Below are positions 3,695-49,986 of a DNA stretch of 64,000 nucleotides, piece by piece. Within the stretch, counting starts at the first letter, position 1, and the number at the start of each line of letters is the position of its first letter. The DNA lies in the NCBI RefSeq assembly GCF_030160015.1, contig NZ_BSNN01000002.1:682001-746000 (forward strand), given 5' to 3'. The translations under genes and the position numbers were made by a program. The notes beneath the pieces were generated by a model. The model was not told where the DNA came from. It searched no databases and saw only the letters and a program-made list of their open reading frames with translations. The DNA comes from Amylibacter marinus (lineage in GTDB: Bacteria > Pseudomonadota > Alphaproteobacteria > Rhodobacterales > Rhodobacteraceae).

Positions 3695-4543
3695 TCAGCG
3701 ATAGGCGGCGCGGATCATTTCGGCCAAATGTGCGGCCAAATTCGATTGGCGCTCTGGGCAGACGTAAAGATTTACGTCGAAAACGGGCAAGTCGGGCAGA
3801 GCATTATCATGGGCGATCTCTTCCATATCCATAGGCACCCGCGTGGCCAAACGCGCCTCGACTGCCAGATCCGCACTCAGGCTGGCCTCTACGGTTTCGG
3901 TATTTTCCGTGGTCACGGCCATTTCCCACGATATTCCCGCATTATCCAATGCCTCGGCACTAATGGGACGAAAGGCGCAGGCCTGGGCCGATGCCAGCCG
4001 CAGAGGCCGCTGTTTCCAAGCGCGCCCCCCCTGTGCGCCCACCCAGACCAGCGGATGCTGAGCCAATTGTTCGGCCTTGGCGCTGCCCTCTAATTCTGTG
4101 GTCATGATCACATCGATCTCGCCGGCGTTAAATTGCTTTAGTAGGCTGGCGGTAAAAGAAGAGATCAGGTTCAGCTTTACCTTCGGGTATTCCGCAGCAA
4201 AGCGGCGCAACACATTTGGCACATGCGGGTGTAGGATATCATGAGGCACCCCAAAGGTAATGCTGCCTTCATAGCTGTCGCTGGAGAGCCGCCCCCAGGC
4301 CTCGTCGTTCAGCGCCAACAACCTACGCGCATAGGACAGCAGTAATTCGCCCTCGGGCGTCAGGCCGATCTGTCTCGCAGATCGATCCAACAGCTCCATC
4401 CCCATAGATTCTTCTAGTCGTTTTAATTGCATAGAAACCGCAGATTGGGTCAGATGCAACTGGCCCGCGGCCTTGGTCACCCCCCCGACGTCAGCGACGG
4501 TTAGAAAAGAGCGCAACGCGGTTAAATCTAAGTTTCTGGGCAT
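3695..4543 (-). CDS. LysR-family transcriptional regulator
   Basis: 282 residues from the ATG at 4543, which is preceded by AAGGA; the upstream in-frame start would add 11 residues without a ribosome site. Residues 1-60 form the winged HTH typical of LysR (LDLTALRSFLTVADVGGVTKAAGQLHLTQSAVSMQLKRLEE). The remainder is a type 2 periplasmic-binding-like effector domain, beginning near ITFGVPHDILHPHVPNVL. It is transcribed away from the twin DUF1127 genes, and a 121-bp shared intergenic region (4544-4664) separates them, so these small genes are its most likely targets besides itself. The effector is unknown. Confidence 0.9.
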   Translation of the reverse strand: MPRNLDLTALRSFLTVADVGGVTKAAGQLHLTQSAVSMQLKRLEESMGMELLDRSARQIGLTPEGELLLSYARRLLALNDEAWGRLSSDSYEGSITFGVPHDILHPHVPNVLRRFAAEYPKVKLNLISSFTASLLKQFNAGEIDVIMTTELEGSAKAEQLAQHPLVWVGAQGGRAWKQRPLRLASAQACAFRPISAEALDNAGISWEMAVTTENTETVEASLSADLAVEARLATRVPMDMEEIAHDNALPDLPVFDVNLYVCPERQSNLAAHLAEMIRAAYR

Positions 4544-4664
4544 ATCACAATCCTTGATATCTAAACTAACAACCATTCATTTTACTTATTTAGCAGCAGA
4601 ATGCATAAACATCAAGAAAGTTGATGAAACAACACCAACTCATAAGCAACCGAAAGGAACGAAG

Positions 4665-4880
4665 ATGACATATTATTCAGATACCCGCGCCGCACCTCGC
4701 ACCAATCTCTGGGGTGGCCTTTTCCTGACGTTGCGCAGCATGCAGGCCCGCTCGAAACAACACCGCGCCCTTAGAAAATTGGATGCGGCGGCCCTGCGTG
4801 ATATCGGCCTTACAGCCCAAGATGTGCAAACAGAGCTGGCAACCCCGCTGTGGAAGTCCACCCCCCACCACACCGCGTAA
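4665..4880 (+). CDS. DUF1127 small protein (first of a pair)
   Basis: 71 residues from the ATG at 4665, with AAAGGAA seven bases before it; the frame extends upstream into the LysR gene but that part is not coding. The DUF1127 (YjiS-like) core is visible near residues 35-57 as HRALRKLDAAALRDIGLTAQD. These Arg-rich small proteins are abundant in Rhodobacterales, and one studied member in Rhodobacter (CcaF1) binds RNA and affects RNA turnover; the role of this one is unknown. It is 25 bases from a second DUF1127 gene and shares a promoter region with the LysR gene. Confidence 0.85.
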   Translation: MTYYSDTRAAPRTNLWGGLFLTLRSMQARSKQHRALRKLDAAALRDIGLTAQDVQTELATPLWKSTPHHTA

Positions 4881-4905: not shown

Positions 4906-5100
4906 ATGGCAGCAACTCTTAAATCTTTCGCCGTTTTCGCAACACCCGCTCGTTTGGTGGCGATCCCCGCATCCCTGTTGGTGATCGCACAGATCCAAAA
5001 ACAACGCCGCGCACTAGCTAGGCTGTCTCCTGCGCAACTGAGCGATATCGGCCTAACCGCATCACAGGCCAAAACCGAGGCCGCGCGCTTCGGTCTGTAA
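4906..5100 (+). CDS. DUF1127 small protein (second of a pair)
   Basis: 64 residues from the ATG at 4906 with AGAAGG upstream. A hydrophobic stretch (residues 8-27, AVFATPARLVAIPASLLVIA) precedes the DUF1127 core RRALARLSPAQLSDIGLTAS, so it may associate with the membrane, unlike its neighbour. It is 25 bases after the first DUF1127 gene and is followed by an intrinsic terminator, so the two form a two-gene operon. Function unknown. Confidence 0.85.
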   Translation: MAATLKSFAVFATPARLVAIPASLLVIAQIQKQRRALARLSPAQLSDIGLTASQAKTEAARFGL

Positions 5101-7230: not shown

Positions 7231-8291
7231 AGTACACCTGCCGTGATCAAACCCTGGGCTATTTCTTGATACGCCCCCGCCACCGCGCTGTCGGTCGCCG
7301 CAATCGGTGTGCCACTGTCACCGGCCACGCGAATATCCAGCTCTAACGGGATTTCCCCAAGGAACGGCAAGCCAAGGCGCGCCGCATCATCGCGCGCGCC
7401 GCCATGGCCAAAGATATGCGCCTCGTGGCCACATTTCGGGCAATGATAGCTGGACATATTCTCGATCATCCCCAGCATCGGGGTTTTCACCCGCTCAAAC
7501 ATGTTCATCGCCTTGCGCGCATCCAACAACGCCACATCCTGCGGCGTAGACACGATAATCGCGCCATCTACCTTGGTCTTTTGCGCCAGCGTTAACTGCA
7601 CATCCCCAGTGCCCGGCGGCAGATCAATTAATAAGACATCCAATTCGCCCCATTCCACCTGATTAAGCATCTGTTGCAACGCCCCCATCAGCATCGGCCC
7701 ACGCCAAATAACCGCCTCGTCCTCTTGCATCATTAGTCCCAATGACATCATGGTCACACCATGCGCCTGTAGTGGGATAATCGTCTTGCCATCCGGGCTG
7801 GCGGGGCGTTTGGATACCCCCATCATGCGCGGCTGGCTAGGCCCATGGATATCTGCATCCAATAGCCCCACCCGCTTGCCCATCGCGGCCAAGGCCACGG
7901 CAAGGTTGCTGGACACGGTGGATTTCCCCACCCCACCCTTACCAGAGCCAATGGCAATGATTTTAGAAACACCGGCAATGGGCTGATTATCATCTTGGGG
8001 TTTCATATGCCCCCCAACCTTTAGGTTTGGCGGGGGCGCCTTGGGGGCCTCATGCGCGGTTAGAATTACACGGGCCTTGCTGACCCCATCCATCTCGGCC
8101 AACAATTTCTCTGCGGCTGCACGCACCGGTTCCATACGCGCGCCCAGCGCCGCAGGCACCTCGAGCACAAAGCTGACCTGCCCGCCCGTGATGGTAATTG
8201 CGCGTACCATATCCGCAGAAACGATGTCACTGCCATCGGGCAGTTGAATGCGCTTCAACTCATCTTGAATTTGTTGTGTAGTTATAGACAT
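7227..8291 (-). CDS. mrp: Mrp/NBP35 family iron-sulfur carrier ATPase (ApbC)
   Basis: 354 residues. An N-terminal MIP18/DUF59-like domain (1-85) is joined to a P-loop NTPase: deviant Walker A GKGGVGKSTVSSNLA near residue 116, DADIHGPSQPRMMG, and LLIDLPPGTGDVQLTL. A CPKCGHEAHIFG segment near residue 285 gives the CXXC that bridges a shared 4Fe-4S cluster in the dimer. The protein carries Fe-S clusters to apo-proteins in the cytosol. It starts only 77 bases from the likely start of the divergent tupB. Confidence 0.95.
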   Translation of the reverse strand: MSITTQQIQDELKRIQLPDGSDIVSADMVRAITITGGQVSFVLEVPAALGARMEPVRAAAEKLLAEMDGVSKARVILTAHEAPKAPPPNLKVGGHMKPQDDNQPIAGVSKIIAIGSGKGGVGKSTVSSNLAVALAAMGKRVGLLDADIHGPSQPRMMGVSKRPASPDGKTIIPLQAHGVTMMSLGLMMQEDEAVIWRGPMLMGALQQMLNQVEWGELDVLLIDLPPGTGDVQLTLAQKTKVDGAIIVSTPQDVALLDARKAMNMFERVKTPMLGMIENMSSYHCPKCGHEAHIFGHGGARDDAARLGLPFLGEIPLELDIRVAGDSGTPIAATDSAVAGAYQEIAQGLITAGVL

Positions 8292-8367
8292 GACGCCCCG
8301 CGTTCAGTTAAACAGTTTCGAGCCAAATTTTACCAATTCCGCGCCGAGGGCAAGAGGGAACCACAGG

Positions 8368-9069
8368 TTGGATATTTTTACCACAGCCCTAAGCCTGATC
8401 ACCAGCGCAGATGCGACGCTGTGGGGGATTGTCGGCCTGTCCTTTAAAATCAGCGGCGCGGCCACACTTTTGGCCGCACTGCTGGCAGTACCGCTGGGGG
8501 CGGCGCTGGCCATGGGGCGGTTTTGGGGGCGGCGGGGCATACTGGCCCTCTCGACGGCGCTTATGGCCCTGCCCCCCGTGGTGGTTGGACTGGCGATCTA
8601 TCTGTTGCTGTCGCGCGCAGGGCCCTTGGGGCACTGGGGGCTATTGTTCACGCCCAGCGCCATGATCATCGCCCAGACGGTTCTAATCTTCCCGATTATA
8701 CTGGCCCTAACCACCGAGGCCGTCACCCCCCTAGAGCAAAGCTACCGCCCACTGTTAGATTCTGTTGATGCGGGTTGGGTGTTTCGCCTGAAAACACTGA
8801 TCATCGATGCGCGTTTCGCAATTTTTACTGCCCTATTGGCGGGATTTGGACGCGCCATTGCCGAGGTGGGCGCGGTGATCATCGTGGGGGGCAATATTGC
8901 GGGGTTAACACGGGTTATGACCACCACAATTGCACTCGAAACCTCTAAAGGTAATCTGGAATTGGCCTTAGCGCTGGGGATTGTGCTGATCCTGATGGCC
9001 TTGGCGGTAAATGCGATAATTCATTTGCTAAAATCCGCAGGCGAAAAGAACCAAAGGGCGCAAAGATGA
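8368..9069 (+). CDS. tupB: Tungstate-type ABC transporter permease
   Basis: 233 residues if started at TTG 8368, which has AGAGGGA about eight bases upstream. The ATG at 8290 overlaps the divergent mrp start codon, leaves no promoter room and adds a non-hydrophobic 26-residue tail. Five to six membrane helices are present with the permease EAA-type loop EQSYRPLLDSVDAG...F..LIIDARFAIFTALLAGFGRAIAEVGAV. The family is the TupB permease of the tungstate importer, and the closely related molybdate/sulfate permeases are the alternatives. The stop overlaps the tupC start (ATGA). Confidence 0.85.
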   Translation: MDIFTTALSLITSADATLWGIVGLSFKISGAATLLAALLAVPLGAALAMGRFWGRRGILALSTALMALPPVVVGLAIYLLLSRAGPLGHWGLLFTPSAMIIAQTVLIFPIILALTTEAVTPLEQSYRPLLDSVDAGWVFRLKTLIIDARFAIFTALLAGFGRAIAEVGAVIIVGGNIAGLTRVMTTTIALETSKGNLELALALGIVLILMALAVNAIIHLLKSAGEKNQRAQR

Positions 9070-9764
9070 TCCTCTCACTCAAAACCGCAAGCTTTGCGGC
9101 GAATGGGAAAACCCTGCTGGGGCCGATTTCGCTGGATATCCCGATGGATGGCATCACAGTGGTTTTGGGGCCAAATGGTGCGGGTAAATCGCTGTTTCTG
9201 GAAATGTGCCATGGGTTAATCCCCCTCAGTATGGGCAGTCTGTGCTGGGATGGCATCCCGGCCAATCATGAAAAATCAAGCAGAGGCTATATTTTTCAGC
9301 ATCGAATTACCCTGCGCCAATCGGTTGCCCGCAATATTGCCCTACCTTTGCGCGCGGCCAAATGGCCAAAGGCCAAACAAATTGCCCGCACCAAAGAACT
9401 GTTGTCCCTTACACAGCTTAGTGCCAAGGCCGATGAACCAGCGGTTGTTCTATCCGGCGGCGAGGCCCAGCGCATGGCATTGGCGCGCGCCATGGCCCAC
9501 CACCCCAAAACAATTCTAATGGATGAACCCACCAGCAATCTAGATCCAAAGGCCACAGAAACCTTTGAAATGCTGATCCAAGACATTGCCGACAGTGGGG
9601 TGTCGTTTTTATGGGCGACCCACAATCTGGCACAGGCTAAACGCTTTGCCAAGCATGTGCTGTTTATCTCCGAGGGAAAAATTGTTGAATATGCCCCCGC
9701 AGATCAGTTTTTCAACACACCCATTCATCCCACTTGCCAAAATTTTTTAAGGCCACCTTTATGA
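9066..9764 (+). CDS. tupC: Tungstate-type ABC transporter ATP-binding protein
   Basis: 232 residues. The Walker A motif GPNGAGKSLFLE lies near residue 35, Q-loop IFQHRITLRQSV near 76, ABC signature LSGGEAQRMALARAMA near 131, Walker B ILMDEPTSNLD near 150 and the H-loop WATHNLAQAKRF near 182. It powers import by the TupB permease. It overlaps tupB by four bases at its start and tupA by four bases at its end. A molybdate role cannot be excluded from the ATPase alone. Confidence 0.88.
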   Translation: MILSLKTASFAANGKTLLGPISLDIPMDGITVVLGPNGAGKSLFLEMCHGLIPLSMGSLCWDGIPANHEKSSRGYIFQHRITLRQSVARNIALPLRAAKWPKAKQIARTKELLSLTQLSAKADEPAVVLSGGEAQRMALARAMAHHPKTILMDEPTSNLDPKATETFEMLIQDIADSGVSFLWATHNLAQAKRFAKHVLFISEGKIVEYAPADQFFNTPIHPTCQNFLRPPL

Positions 9765-10579
9765 AATCGCTGCTAACCTGCCTGTTGCTTCTTGCCACCC
9801 CCCTAAGCGCAGACAGCATAACCCTCGCCTCTACCACATCAACCCAGAATTCCGGGCTTTATGACTACCTTATCCCTCTGTTCACCAAGGATACGGGCAT
9901 CGAGGTCAAAGTGATCGCCGTTGGCACAGGCCAAGCCCTGCGCATTGCACGTAATGGCGATGCGGATGTGTTGATGGTACACCACCGCCCGTCAGAAGAC
10001 GCGTTTATGGCCCAAGGTTATGGCAGCGTTCGCTTTGATGTCATGTACAATGATTTCGTACTCGTCGGGCCACAAATGCCCCAAAAACCCAAGTCCTTGA
10101 CCCGCTTCCTTCAGATAATGGCTCAGGATCAAACGCATCTGTTTATCTCTCGCGGTGATGACAGTGGCACCCATAAAAAGGAACGCGAGCTTTGGGCCCA
10201 AGCGCTAGACACCCCCCCCAGTGGCACATGGTACCGCGAGATCGGCGCAGGTATGGGCGCGGCTCTGAACATGGCCGCATCTGAAAATGCCTATACGCTA
10301 TCGGATCGCGGCACTTGGCTATCTTTTGGCAACAAAGGCGATCTGGCCATTCGCTGGGCCGGTGATCCAGACCTGCGCAACCCCTATGGGTTGATATTGG
10401 TAAACCCAGACCGCTTCCCCCATATTAACGCACAGGCAGCGGCGGAATTTGCCAAATGGATTACCGCCCCCAGGGCACAGGCCGCTATCGAGGCCTTCCG
10501 TATCGAGGGCATGCAATTATTCTGCCCCCATACCCCGGTAAATGCCACCCAGAGCGCAAAAACATGTCCAGCGCAATGA
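9761..10579 (+). CDS. tupA: Tungstate-type substrate-binding protein
   Basis: 272 residues from the ATG at 9761, which overlaps the tupC stop as ATGA. Residues 1-17 are a Sec signal peptide (MKSLLTCLLLLATPLSA). The mature N-terminus TLASTTSTQNSGLYDYLIPLF, then GTGQALRIARNGDADVLMVHH and VMYNDFVLVGP, match the TupA hallmarks, where the TTST segment holds the oxyanion. It captures tungstate in the periplasm for TupBC, supplying tungsten or molybdenum enzymes. No cofactor or enzyme genes using the metal are in the window. Confidence 0.88.
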   Translation: MKSLLTCLLLLATPLSADSITLASTTSTQNSGLYDYLIPLFTKDTGIEVKVIAVGTGQALRIARNGDADVLMVHHRPSEDAFMAQGYGSVRFDVMYNDFVLVGPQMPQKPKSLTRFLQIMAQDQTHLFISRGDDSGTHKKERELWAQALDTPPSGTWYREIGAGMGAALNMAASENAYTLSDRGTWLSFGNKGDLAIRWAGDPDLRNPYGLILVNPDRFPHINAQAAAEFAKWITAPRAQAAIEAFRIEGMQLFCPHTPVNATQSAKTCPAQ

Positions 10580-10659
10580 AAGAGCTATGCGTAAAGCGCA
10601 TAACGGCTTTGCATTAATTAATCTTCTATTAACACATCAACCACCCTAAATATAACCCA

Positions 10660-10794
10660 AGAGAAACAAATCTCTGCGCCACTCCTCCTCCCGGCGCGAA
10701 ATTTGAACTGGCCAGCTTCCTCCTCCCTGAAGGTGGCCAAACAAGATAGACGGCGACACTTCATCCTCCTCCCTTGAAGTGTCGCCGTTTTAAT
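10660..10794 (+). ncRNA. Small RNA of three hairpins with CCTCCTCCC loops (CcsR/cuckoo-like)
   Basis: Three consecutive hairpins each present the same nonamer CCTCCTCCC in the loop. Hairpin 1: GCGCC/GGCGC at 10676-10697. Hairpin 2: TGGCCA plus CTTC against GAAG plus TGGCCA at 10709-10739. Hairpin 3: a perfect 13-bp stem, CGGCGACACTTCA against its complement, at 10751-10787, followed by TTTTAATT and so a terminator. A smaller AGAGA/TCTCT stem precedes them. The motif is that of the alphaproteobacterial CcsR/cuckoo (alpha-r14) RNAs, which mimic the anti-Shine-Dalgarno sequence and are stress-induced in Rhodobacter. The 424-bp gap between tupA and the next gene contains nothing else clear; no confident promoter was found. 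Confidence 0.82.
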
Positions 10795-11003
10795 TCCCCC
10801 CTCAAACACCGGCGATAAACCCCGCGCTTATTGCACCCCGTACAATACATCACTGTACTGTTGCTGCGTGCCTTTGCATGCACCAAATTAATGGCTAGAT
10901 GGCCAAGCTATGCATCAGGCGCATTTCGGCATTGCAGAACTATCTGTTTAACGTCCACCCCAAGGATCCTAATTATAAGGTACGAAACCAAGGAGCCTTA
11001 GAC

Positions 11004-11216
11004 ATGGCATATATCACACAGAACCACGCAACTCCCAGCGTATTCGCTGGTATCATCTCAGCATTCAACGCGCTCAAAGCGCGCTATGAAGCAAACCGTG
11101 TTTACGCGAAAACAGTGTCTGAGCTAAGCGCCCTGACAGCTCGCGATTTGGCTGATCTCAATATCAACCGTGCCGACATCCGTCGCATTGCACGAGAAGC
11201 CGCCTACGGCGCATAA
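11004..11216 (+). CDS. DUF1127 small protein beside the CCTCCTCCC RNA
   Basis: 70 residues from the ATG at 11004, with AAGGAG eight bases upstream; the frame is open further up but has no ribosome site there. The C-terminal DUF1127 core reads VSELSALTARDLADLNINRADIRRIAREAAYG, closer to the Rhodobacter CcaF1 type than the two DUF1127 proteins at 4.7-5.1 kb. In Rhodobacter sphaeroides a DUF1127 gene is co-transcribed with the CCUCCUCCC RNAs. Here the three-hairpin RNA lies 210 bases upstream and one further hairpin with a TCCTCCC loop follows directly, so the link seems kept with a changed order. Confidence 0.85.
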   Translation: MAYITQNHATPSVFAGIISAFNALKARYEANRVYAKTVSELSALTARDLADLNINRADIRRIAREAAYGA

Positions 11217-11232
11217 GACAGCCCATAACACG

Positions 11233-11269
11233 AAAAGGCGATGCATTCCTCCCATGCATCGCCTTTTTT
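11233..11269 (+). terminator. Terminator with a TCCTCCC loop after the DUF1127 gene
   Basis: AAAGGCGATGCAT pairs with ATGCATCGCCTTT around a seven-base loop TCCTCCC, followed by six T. The loop repeats the core of the nonamer exposed by the upstream RNA, so this 3' end could be both terminator and a released CCTCC-type RNA. On the minus strand it can also end the small gene at 11288. Confidence 0.88.
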
Positions 11270-13351: not shown

Positions 13352-13439
13352 TGGTGCGGCTGAGAAGACTCGAACTTCCACGGGTTTTACCCCACAGCGA
13401 CCTCAACGCTGCGCGTCTACCATTCCGCCACAGCCGCAC
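13352..13439 (-). tRNA. tRNA-Leu (anticodon GAG)
   Basis: 88 bases including an encoded CCA end. The acceptor arm pairs GTGCGGC with GCCGCAC. The anticodon stem-loop is CAGCG-TTGAGGT-CGCTG, giving GAG, which reads CUC/CUU leucine codons. A long variable arm (class II tRNA) and the T loop TTCGAGTC are present. Its 3' side faces the AT-rich patch, but no duplicated tRNA end was seen there. Confidence 0.95.
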
Positions 13440-49860: not shown

Positions 49861-49886
49861 AAAAAAACCCCGACCAAAAGTCGGGG
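49861..49886 (-). terminator. Terminator in the metZ leader
   Basis: CCCCGAC/GTCGGGG stem with loop TTTTG on the minus strand, followed by seven T; 25 bases before the metZ start and 14 after the riboswitch, so it can act as attenuator. Confidence 0.92.
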
Positions 49887-49899
49887 CAATCGGCCCTGA

Positions 49900-49953
49900 C
49901 CTTTTTAGCGGCATATTTAACGTGGCCCACAATCCGGTTACAAATCGCCACAC
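49900..49953 (-). promoter_or_regulatory. SAM-II riboswitch of metZ
   Basis: On the minus strand the leader begins GTGTGGCGATTTGTAACCGG, pairs GTGGC with GCCAC, and continues ACGTTAAATATGCCGCTAAAAAGG in two pieces, which are the conserved parts of the SAM-II (SAM_alpha) pseudoknot. This class binds S-adenosylmethionine and shuts down methionine genes in alphaproteobacteria. The RNA starts a few bases after a good promoter, and a terminator follows. Confidence 0.93.
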
Positions 49954-49957
49954 CAAA

Positions 49958-49986
49958 TAAGTACCCATTCAAATAAAAAACGTCAA
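49958..49986 (-). promoter_or_regulatory. Sigma-70 promoter of the metZ leader
   Basis: TTGACG (49981-49986) and TACTTA (49958-49963) separated by exactly 17 bases on the minus strand. The predicted start, near 49951, coincides with the 5' edge of the riboswitch. Confidence 0.8.

Follow-up and report, generated by a model that had tools for sequence, protein, structure and literature searches.

A conserved operator, probably of the LsrB/VtlR type, is common to a cuckoo-type RNA and a DUF1127 gene in Amylibacter marinus

In the window analysed here, a 64,000-nt stretch of the Amylibacter marinus genome (contig NZ_BSNN01000002.1, positions 682,001 to 746,000 of the forward strand), a small RNA with three hairpins lies between a tupA-like gene and a DUF1127 gene, and copies of one conserved operator precede the RNA and the DUF1127 gene. 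The locus is real, conserved and unusually split. The RNA is of a known type, and what is unexpected is the operator common to RNA and DUF1127, which, judged from sequence comparisons, is probably of the LsrB/VtlR type across the family. Taken as a whole, it seems probable that the RNA is an anti-Shine-Dalgarno sRNA activated by a LysR protein of the LsrB/VtlR type, co-regulated with DUF1127 and directed at the ribosome-binding sites of transporter genes. The shared operator is a testable candidate switch for CcsR-type RNAs and DUF1127 proteins, beside the heat-shock sigma factors, and it joins the Rhodobacter sphaeroides CcsR/CcaF1 and the rhizobial and Brucella LsrB/VtlR literatures, which are treated apart in the papers covered.

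The nonamer CCTCCTCCC occurs three times on the forward strand (10684-10692, 10719-10727 and 10765-10773), and a search of both strands of the window found no further copy. In 100 dinucleotide shuffles of the window it appeared 0.31 times on average, at most twice and in none three times, and the 2.72 Mb genome holds only these three forward copies and one reverse copy. Each copy falls within the loop of one predicted hairpin. The order on the forward strand is a small 5' hairpin that lacks the motif (10660-10675), hairpin 1 (10676-10697, loop ACTCCTCCTCCC), hairpin 2 (10709-10739, loop CTCCTCCCT) and hairpin 3 (10748-10791, loop TCCTCCTCCCT), the last being the terminator with a 16-pair stem and a T run at 10788-10791. 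The 146-nt RNA region folded at -56.1 kcal/mol, whereas its shuffles averaged -28.4 (z -7.3) and 0 of 200 did as well. Folded singly, hairpin 3 (z -8.4) was likewise unequalled in 200 shuffles, as was a 42-nt piece containing hairpin 1 (z -3.6), whereas hairpin 2 is weak on its own (z -2.5) because 7 of 200 shuffles fold as well. Search, fold and shuffles thus confirm the three stems presenting the same nonamer that were described in a first-pass annotation, which had also read the last stem as a 13-bp terminator; the terminator stands and its length does not, the fold giving 16 pairs. A consensus terminator scan with a loop limit of 8 did not list hairpin 3, whose T run is merely TTTT.

A covariance-model comparison, proposed in the first-pass annotation together with the suggestion of a cuckoo, ar14 or CcsR-like RNA, bore out this identity. 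In an Rfam search at permissive thresholds positions 10666-10790 of the forward strand aligned end to end with the ar14 model (RF02344, model positions 1-123; E 1.8e-7) at 47.2 bits, short of the gathering score of 58.8 bits, and more weakly with the CcsR1 model (RF02791) at 29.8 bits versus a gathering score of 65.3. At gathering thresholds neither ar14 nor CcsR was reported for the RNA. The untruncated full-length alignment contains three consecutive CCUCCUCCC-loop hairpins, and the RF02344 consensus has three CCUCCUCCC loops. The RNA is cuckoo-type and not a curated ar14 member. It had also been described as a compact triple-loop form, a description that falls away since three loops are the usual cuckoo/ar14 form, found both in the ar14 model and in Sinorhizobium meliloti SmelA075; the latter is reported to have three hairpins, and SmelA099 four, each with a loop of the CCUCCUCCC kind (PMC3927594). 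Among 101 genomes (A. marinus and relatives) the ar14 model gave a match at E <= 0.001 in 46, and in 5 the score attained the gathering threshold. The search filters miss some of these RNAs, because G002 and G007, two genomes in which the ar14 model had no match, possess hairpins with CTCC loops downstream of the operator and tupA. Elsewhere in the window there are a SAM_alpha riboswitch (49884-49961, reverse strand) whose 58.4 bits exceed its gathering score and a tRNA gene (13355-13437, reverse strand).

Upstream of the RNA, on the same strand, lie a tupB-like permease ORF (8290-9069) and a tupC-like ATPase ORF (9066-9764), both conserved neighbours detected by tblastn in genus loci, and a gene for a tupA-like solute-binding protein (9761-10579; PF12849, E 3.1e-37); the tup names are those of the first-pass annotation and the Pfam scan covered TupA only. 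The RNA was found in the tupA-DUF1127 gap of its own genome as had been stated. Of the 27 genus loci compared first, that of A. marinus among them, 14 have a TupA relative ahead of it, as do six further genomes (G002, G003, G005, G006, G007 and G018), and DUF1127 follows it in 9 of the 14 TupA-bearing loci, such that the proposed synteny comparison recovers the order tupA, RNA, DUF1127 in these nine. The placement behind a metal transporter does not hold throughout: in four genomes (G004, G016, G029 and G031) operator, CTCC loops and DUF1127 are retained, but approximately 4 kb of upstream sequence gave no match to TupA. The same four genomes bear on the possibility that the RNA has no gene of its own and arises by processing from the 3' UTR of the tupBCA mRNA, which would tie it to tungstate or molybdenum supply. 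Such an origin would suit an RNA that starts about 80 nt past tupA on the same strand and has TupA upstream in so many loci, and CcsR RNAs are reported to be cut by RNase E out of a longer transcript (PMC10253847). It is nevertheless unlikely, given the loci without TupA and the presence of the operator between tupA and the RNA, with no more than one mismatch, in all 14 aligned loci.

When the 14 genus loci (own included) were folded, three hairpins with CTCC-core loops were found behind tupA in each, in some with one or other of these loops shortened to CCTCCC or TTCTCCC. Two-sided pair changes were observed at nearly all stem positions while the loop core was unchanged; because the DNA alignment matched the stems poorly, the count was made on minimum free energy folds, starting at each loop and moving outward, and it therefore covers predicted pairs only, broken pairs being invisible to it. 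In these predicted folds the anti-Shine-Dalgarno loops are constant over variable stems, as is characteristic of cuckoo RNAs, and the arms and loops, whose loss in close relatives had been named beforehand as counting against the RNA, are kept in all 14 loci. A mere row of terminators with no function in trans, an idea to which the terminator-like hairpin 3 and DUF1127 hairpin lend themselves, is highly improbable in view of a loop core held constant over variable stems in three hairpins across 14 loci, as terminators need no particular loop sequence.

The DUF1127 gene itself (11004-11216, forward strand; PF06568, E 2.1e-9) encodes a 70-aa protein and is followed by a fourth hairpin (11232-11268, forward strand), its terminator, with a UCCUCCC loop on a 15-pair stem (z -7.29, 0 of 200 shuffles). 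Folding of the 135 nt after DUF1127 gave a hairpin with a CTCC-core loop in 9/9 loci. Cuckoo hairpins therefore stand on both sides of DUF1127, because the gene ends in a UCCUCCC-loop terminator of its own; the usual DUF1127-then-hairpin order is retained and the three-hairpin RNA is an extra unit ahead of it. The placement of the RNA upstream, and not downstream, of DUF1127 was accordingly described correctly in its first half only. The CcsR arrangement, with DUF1127 directly before the hairpins, differs from that seen here, where the three-hairpin RNA precedes the gene and one hairpin follows. A second DUF1127 locus in the window consists of tandem genes (4664-4880 and 4907-5100, forward strand) diverging from an LrhA-like LysR gene (3695-4543, reverse strand); no operator copy at 0-1 mismatch was found at this pair.

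The operator, ATGC-N7-GCAT-N2-CGG-N3-TGC, has perfect copies between tupA and the RNA (10587-10612) and before DUF1127 (10910-10935), both on the forward strand; these two sites are not independent evidence because the motif was defined from them. In each case 60 nt separate the start of the box from a -10-like sequence on the same strand, TAAATATAA for the RNA (10647-10655), a T/A-rich box found at a similar place in most of 14 aligned regions, and TAATTATAA for DUF1127 (10970-10978), assigned from sequence and alignment. The A. marinus genome has no other perfect copy, and its sole single-mismatch copy fronts another DUF1127 gene. A 20-nt operator core adds one site, before a gene for a small protein of 77 aa to which no Pfam family matched. 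No operator copy at 0-1 mismatch accompanies the genome's three other DUF1127 genes above the Pfam cut-off. Among aligned relatives the operator is present in 14/14 RNA promoter regions with 0-1 mismatch and in 9/9 DUF1127 promoter regions with 0-2 mismatches, and 10 genomes of the genus, A. marinus among them, have two perfect 20-nt cores that are separated by 226-323 nt and enclose at least three CTCC motifs.

The spacing of the half-sites suggests a LysR-family protein, and the conserved element looks like a LysR-family operator of the LsrB/VtlR kind. LsrB is reported to activate AbcR1 from a site, GCAT-N3-TG-N3-T, at -61 to -49 (PMC8844928), and in S. meliloti a TGCA-N6-GCAT site upstream of the ar14 RNA NfeR1 is bound by LsrB, which activates this RNA, and is required (PMC10746234). 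Because the published LsrB site lies at -61 to -49, the transcript would start near 10659, and with this putative start the distance from operator to -10-like box fits the LsrB site position.

A sigma-70 scan of the region found no promoter, and no clear -35 element is apparent in the RNA promoter region. Two blocks are conserved across the 14 RNA promoter regions when aligned, the LTTR-like box and the T/A-rich -10, and inspection by eye revealed no RpoH-like box and no CTTG-type -35 at a fixed spacing. Stress induction had been carried over from CcsR, and the element conserved at this promoter looks LysR-type. Of the earlier interpretation the kind of RNA, its position and the terminator hold, the compact form does not, and the upstream-only placement is incomplete. 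A general stress RNA under an RpoH-type sigma factor, with the conserved box secondary, is a possible though minor alternative. It has a precedent in R. sphaeroides, in which CcsR1-4 depend on RpoHI/RpoHII (PMC8307010, PMC10253847), and against it stand the 14 promoter regions with their conserved box and -10 and no CTTG-type -35 by eye. RpoH and LysR inputs could coexist at the RNA promoter.

A census of the genus with the 20-nt core gave 147 matches in 33 genomes compared with 19 for a reversed control. Of 133 distinct sites, a tally that omits the two window sites and others (a later count gave 146 distinct), 22 lie before DUF1127, 14 before the RNA under a strict rule and 97 before neither; one of the 14 RNA assignments (L211, in G011) is probably false, no such loops being seen on inspection. 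The 97 include sites at other small proteins and SorX/Y-like RNAs, and many are probably chance matches. At seven loci (L166, L184, L243, L249, L123, L233 and L251) the core precedes genes for proteins of about 49-90 aa with no DUF1127-profile hit, and the 77-aa type behind the core is common to A. marinus and G019. At four others, in four genus genomes (L167, L171, L194 and L208), it is followed by another small RNA; this RNA has CACCUCCC and a terminator and resembles SorY (E 2.7e-9 to 5e-8) and SorX at scores under their cut-offs. In G022 (L235 / L255) three consecutive DUF1127 genes each have their own operator core, 404 nt apart.

The box also occurs at loci where DUF1127 stands before the hairpins. 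It was found at no more than 3 of 15 mismatches in 13 of 16 such loci, a match equalled by at most 3 of 200 letter shuffles, and all 11 of the 11 loci outside the genus passed; two further loci outside the genus (L071 and L073), in which there was no DUF1127 match, were left out of this test. Three genus loci (G004, G016 and G031) have a poor box before DUF1127, with 4 mismatches equalled by 20-38 of 200 shuffles. In a second sample, 29 genomes from 30 loci chosen among 80 named Rhodobacteraceae and including Cereibacter azotoformans, the box lies upstream of the best DUF1127 match in 29/29 with 0-2 mismatches in 13 positions (at most 2 of 300 letter shuffles), although the box counted for Amylibacter ulvae is that of the RNA, the DUF1127 box there having 2 mismatches. 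At least four CTCCTCC loops follow DUF1127 in 26 of the 29, those without such an array being A. ulvae, Neptunicoccus and Fluviibacterium. In other genera a single DUF1127 gene is followed by 4 to 16 CTCCTCC loops, approximately 15 or 16 of them in L062, L393 and others.

The published VtlR/LsrB motif, scored as the reverse complement of the 15-mer quoted in PMC12595884 (mean maximum in shuffles about 9), was matched at 12 or more of 15 bases in 24 of these 29 relatives. Individual scores were 14 of 15 at 11 loci, 13 at 11, 12 at two, 11 at four and 10 at one; for the five loci at 11 or below, between 3 and 35 of 200 shuffles scored as high. The boxes of the window itself match the 15-mer at 10 and 11 of 15 bases, close to chance, and their probable link to VtlR/LsrB runs through the other genera.

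A candidate for the regulator is encoded at C2:222863-223768 (reverse strand), one of 15 LysR matches in the genome. The best solved relative of this 302-aa protein is A. tumefaciens LsrB (9HH1, the structure deposited with PMC11975290) at 265 bits, the next scoring 107, and five of the 14 other LysR proteins, when tried, scored 102 bits or less against 9HH1. The protein is a putative LsrB orthologue on sequence similarity. A search of 190 genomes of the class found it matched at E <= 1e-40 in 109. The LysR gene at 3695-4543 was also considered and rejected, its best solved relative being LrhA and the adjoining DUF1127 pair having no operator copy at 0-1 mismatch, and L094 was set aside for its OxyR match. 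LsrB has been called unique to Rhizobiales (PMC11975290), and the LsrB-family matches in Rhodobacteraceae argue against that status. The A. marinus protein contains no cysteine, the redox pairs C144/C273 and C236/C244 of A. tumefaciens LsrB being absent, so that it cannot operate the thiol switch reported for LsrB; among 80 named relatives the protein has no cysteine in 28, one in 50 and two in 2. A search for a trxB neighbour used the TrxB-like motif CATCDG. No frame with it was found at the A. marinus locus or near any of the 80 named Rhodobacteraceae-type loci, and in the class sample one is nearby at 25 of the 30 top-scoring loci. In rhizobia lsrB adjoins trxB in an operon (PMC11975290).

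Under the preferred reading, transcription from the RNA's own promoter would yield a trans-acting sRNA of about 130 nt, of the cuckoo/ar14 type, ending at hairpin 3. The cysteine-less LysR activator of the LsrB/VtlR family would bind the operator at about -70 to -50 and recruit RNA polymerase, and the second operator copy would drive DUF1127, whose mRNA is predicted to end in the further UCCUCCC-loop hairpin, the locus representing a DUF1127-cuckoo (CIN1) cluster split in two tandem transcripts. The exposed CCUCCUCCC loops may pair with GGAGG-type ribosome-binding sites, those of transport operons being the likeliest, and block translation; the DUF1127 protein may act as CcaF1 does and affect RNA maturation or turnover. 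The genome contains a single perfect loop complement, GGGAGGAGG, which is the reverse copy of the nonamer noted above and lies 5 nt ahead of a DctQ-like TRAP gene; this gene was rejected as a target since, among 25 genus orthologues, GGGAGGAGG stands at the start of that of A. marinus only, and no target is therefore backed by conservation. The pattern GGGAGG-N4-10-ATG has 62 genomic sites compared with 27 for the reversed pattern, and 7 of 30 fetched GGGAGG starts belong to transport components by Pfam, a proportion given without a background rate that provides a hint only of transport genes as a target class.

Since the perfect complement is single and not conserved no dedicated target is obvious, and the loops, which mimic the 16S anti-Shine-Dalgarno, might form a titrator that acts on ribosomes or soaks up GGAGG-bearing RNAs instead of repressing chosen mRNAs. 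This appears doubtful when set against NfeR1, for which two mRNA targets, both encoding transporter binding proteins, are reported as validated, and AbcR1/2, which bind mRNAs for transport and metabolism in large numbers (PMC8844928).

Extended across the Rhodobacteraceae, the LsrB/VtlR reading is favoured a little less firmly: an LsrB/VtlR-family LysR protein would directly activate DUF1127-cuckoo (ccaF1-CcsR) loci, and within the Amylibacter/Neptunicoccus group its targets would extend to SorX/SorY-like RNAs and other small proteins. Rhizobia, Brucella and Rhodobacteraceae would then have in common a single ancient regulon made up of anti-Shine-Dalgarno RNAs and DUF1127 proteins, the cysteine-less branch sensing a signal other than paired thiols. 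The novelty of an LsrB-type operator at this locus is provisional: the titles and abstract beginnings surveyed, a coverage that excludes the original CcaF1, CcsR and cuckoo papers, mention none at a DUF1127-cuckoo locus in Rhodobacteraceae, and the word 'LysR' is absent from the covered text of both PMC10253847 and PMC8307010. A search of 190 genomes for ar15/AbcR gave no match and is uninformative because the control genomes gave none either.

Three known systems invite comparison. The ar14 RNAs SmelA075 and NfeR1 share with the A. marinus RNA three CCUCCUCCC-loop hairpins, the full-length model match and, probably, an LsrB-type site upstream, but here the score is below the Rfam cut-off and a single genomic copy lies between tupA and DUF1127. 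The R. sphaeroides ccaF1-CcsR1-4 cluster (CIN1 locus; RF02791) likewise combines a DUF1127 gene with CCUCCUCCC-type hairpins on one strand; it differs in that here three hairpins with their own operator stand before DUF1127 and one behind, and in its published RpoHI/RpoHII promoter (PMC10253847, PMC8307010). Finally, Brucella VtlR is described as a positive regulator of AbcR2 and three DUF1127 genes (PMC12595884), and the VtlR/LsrB regulon of Rhizobiales, comprising AbcR and DUF1127, resembles the present case in a putative LysR-type site common to sRNA and DUF1127 genes and in the presence of an LsrB relative, whereas the RNA here is cuckoo-type and not AbcR, the regulator is cysteine-less and no trxB neighbours it in the Rhodobacteraceae loci examined.
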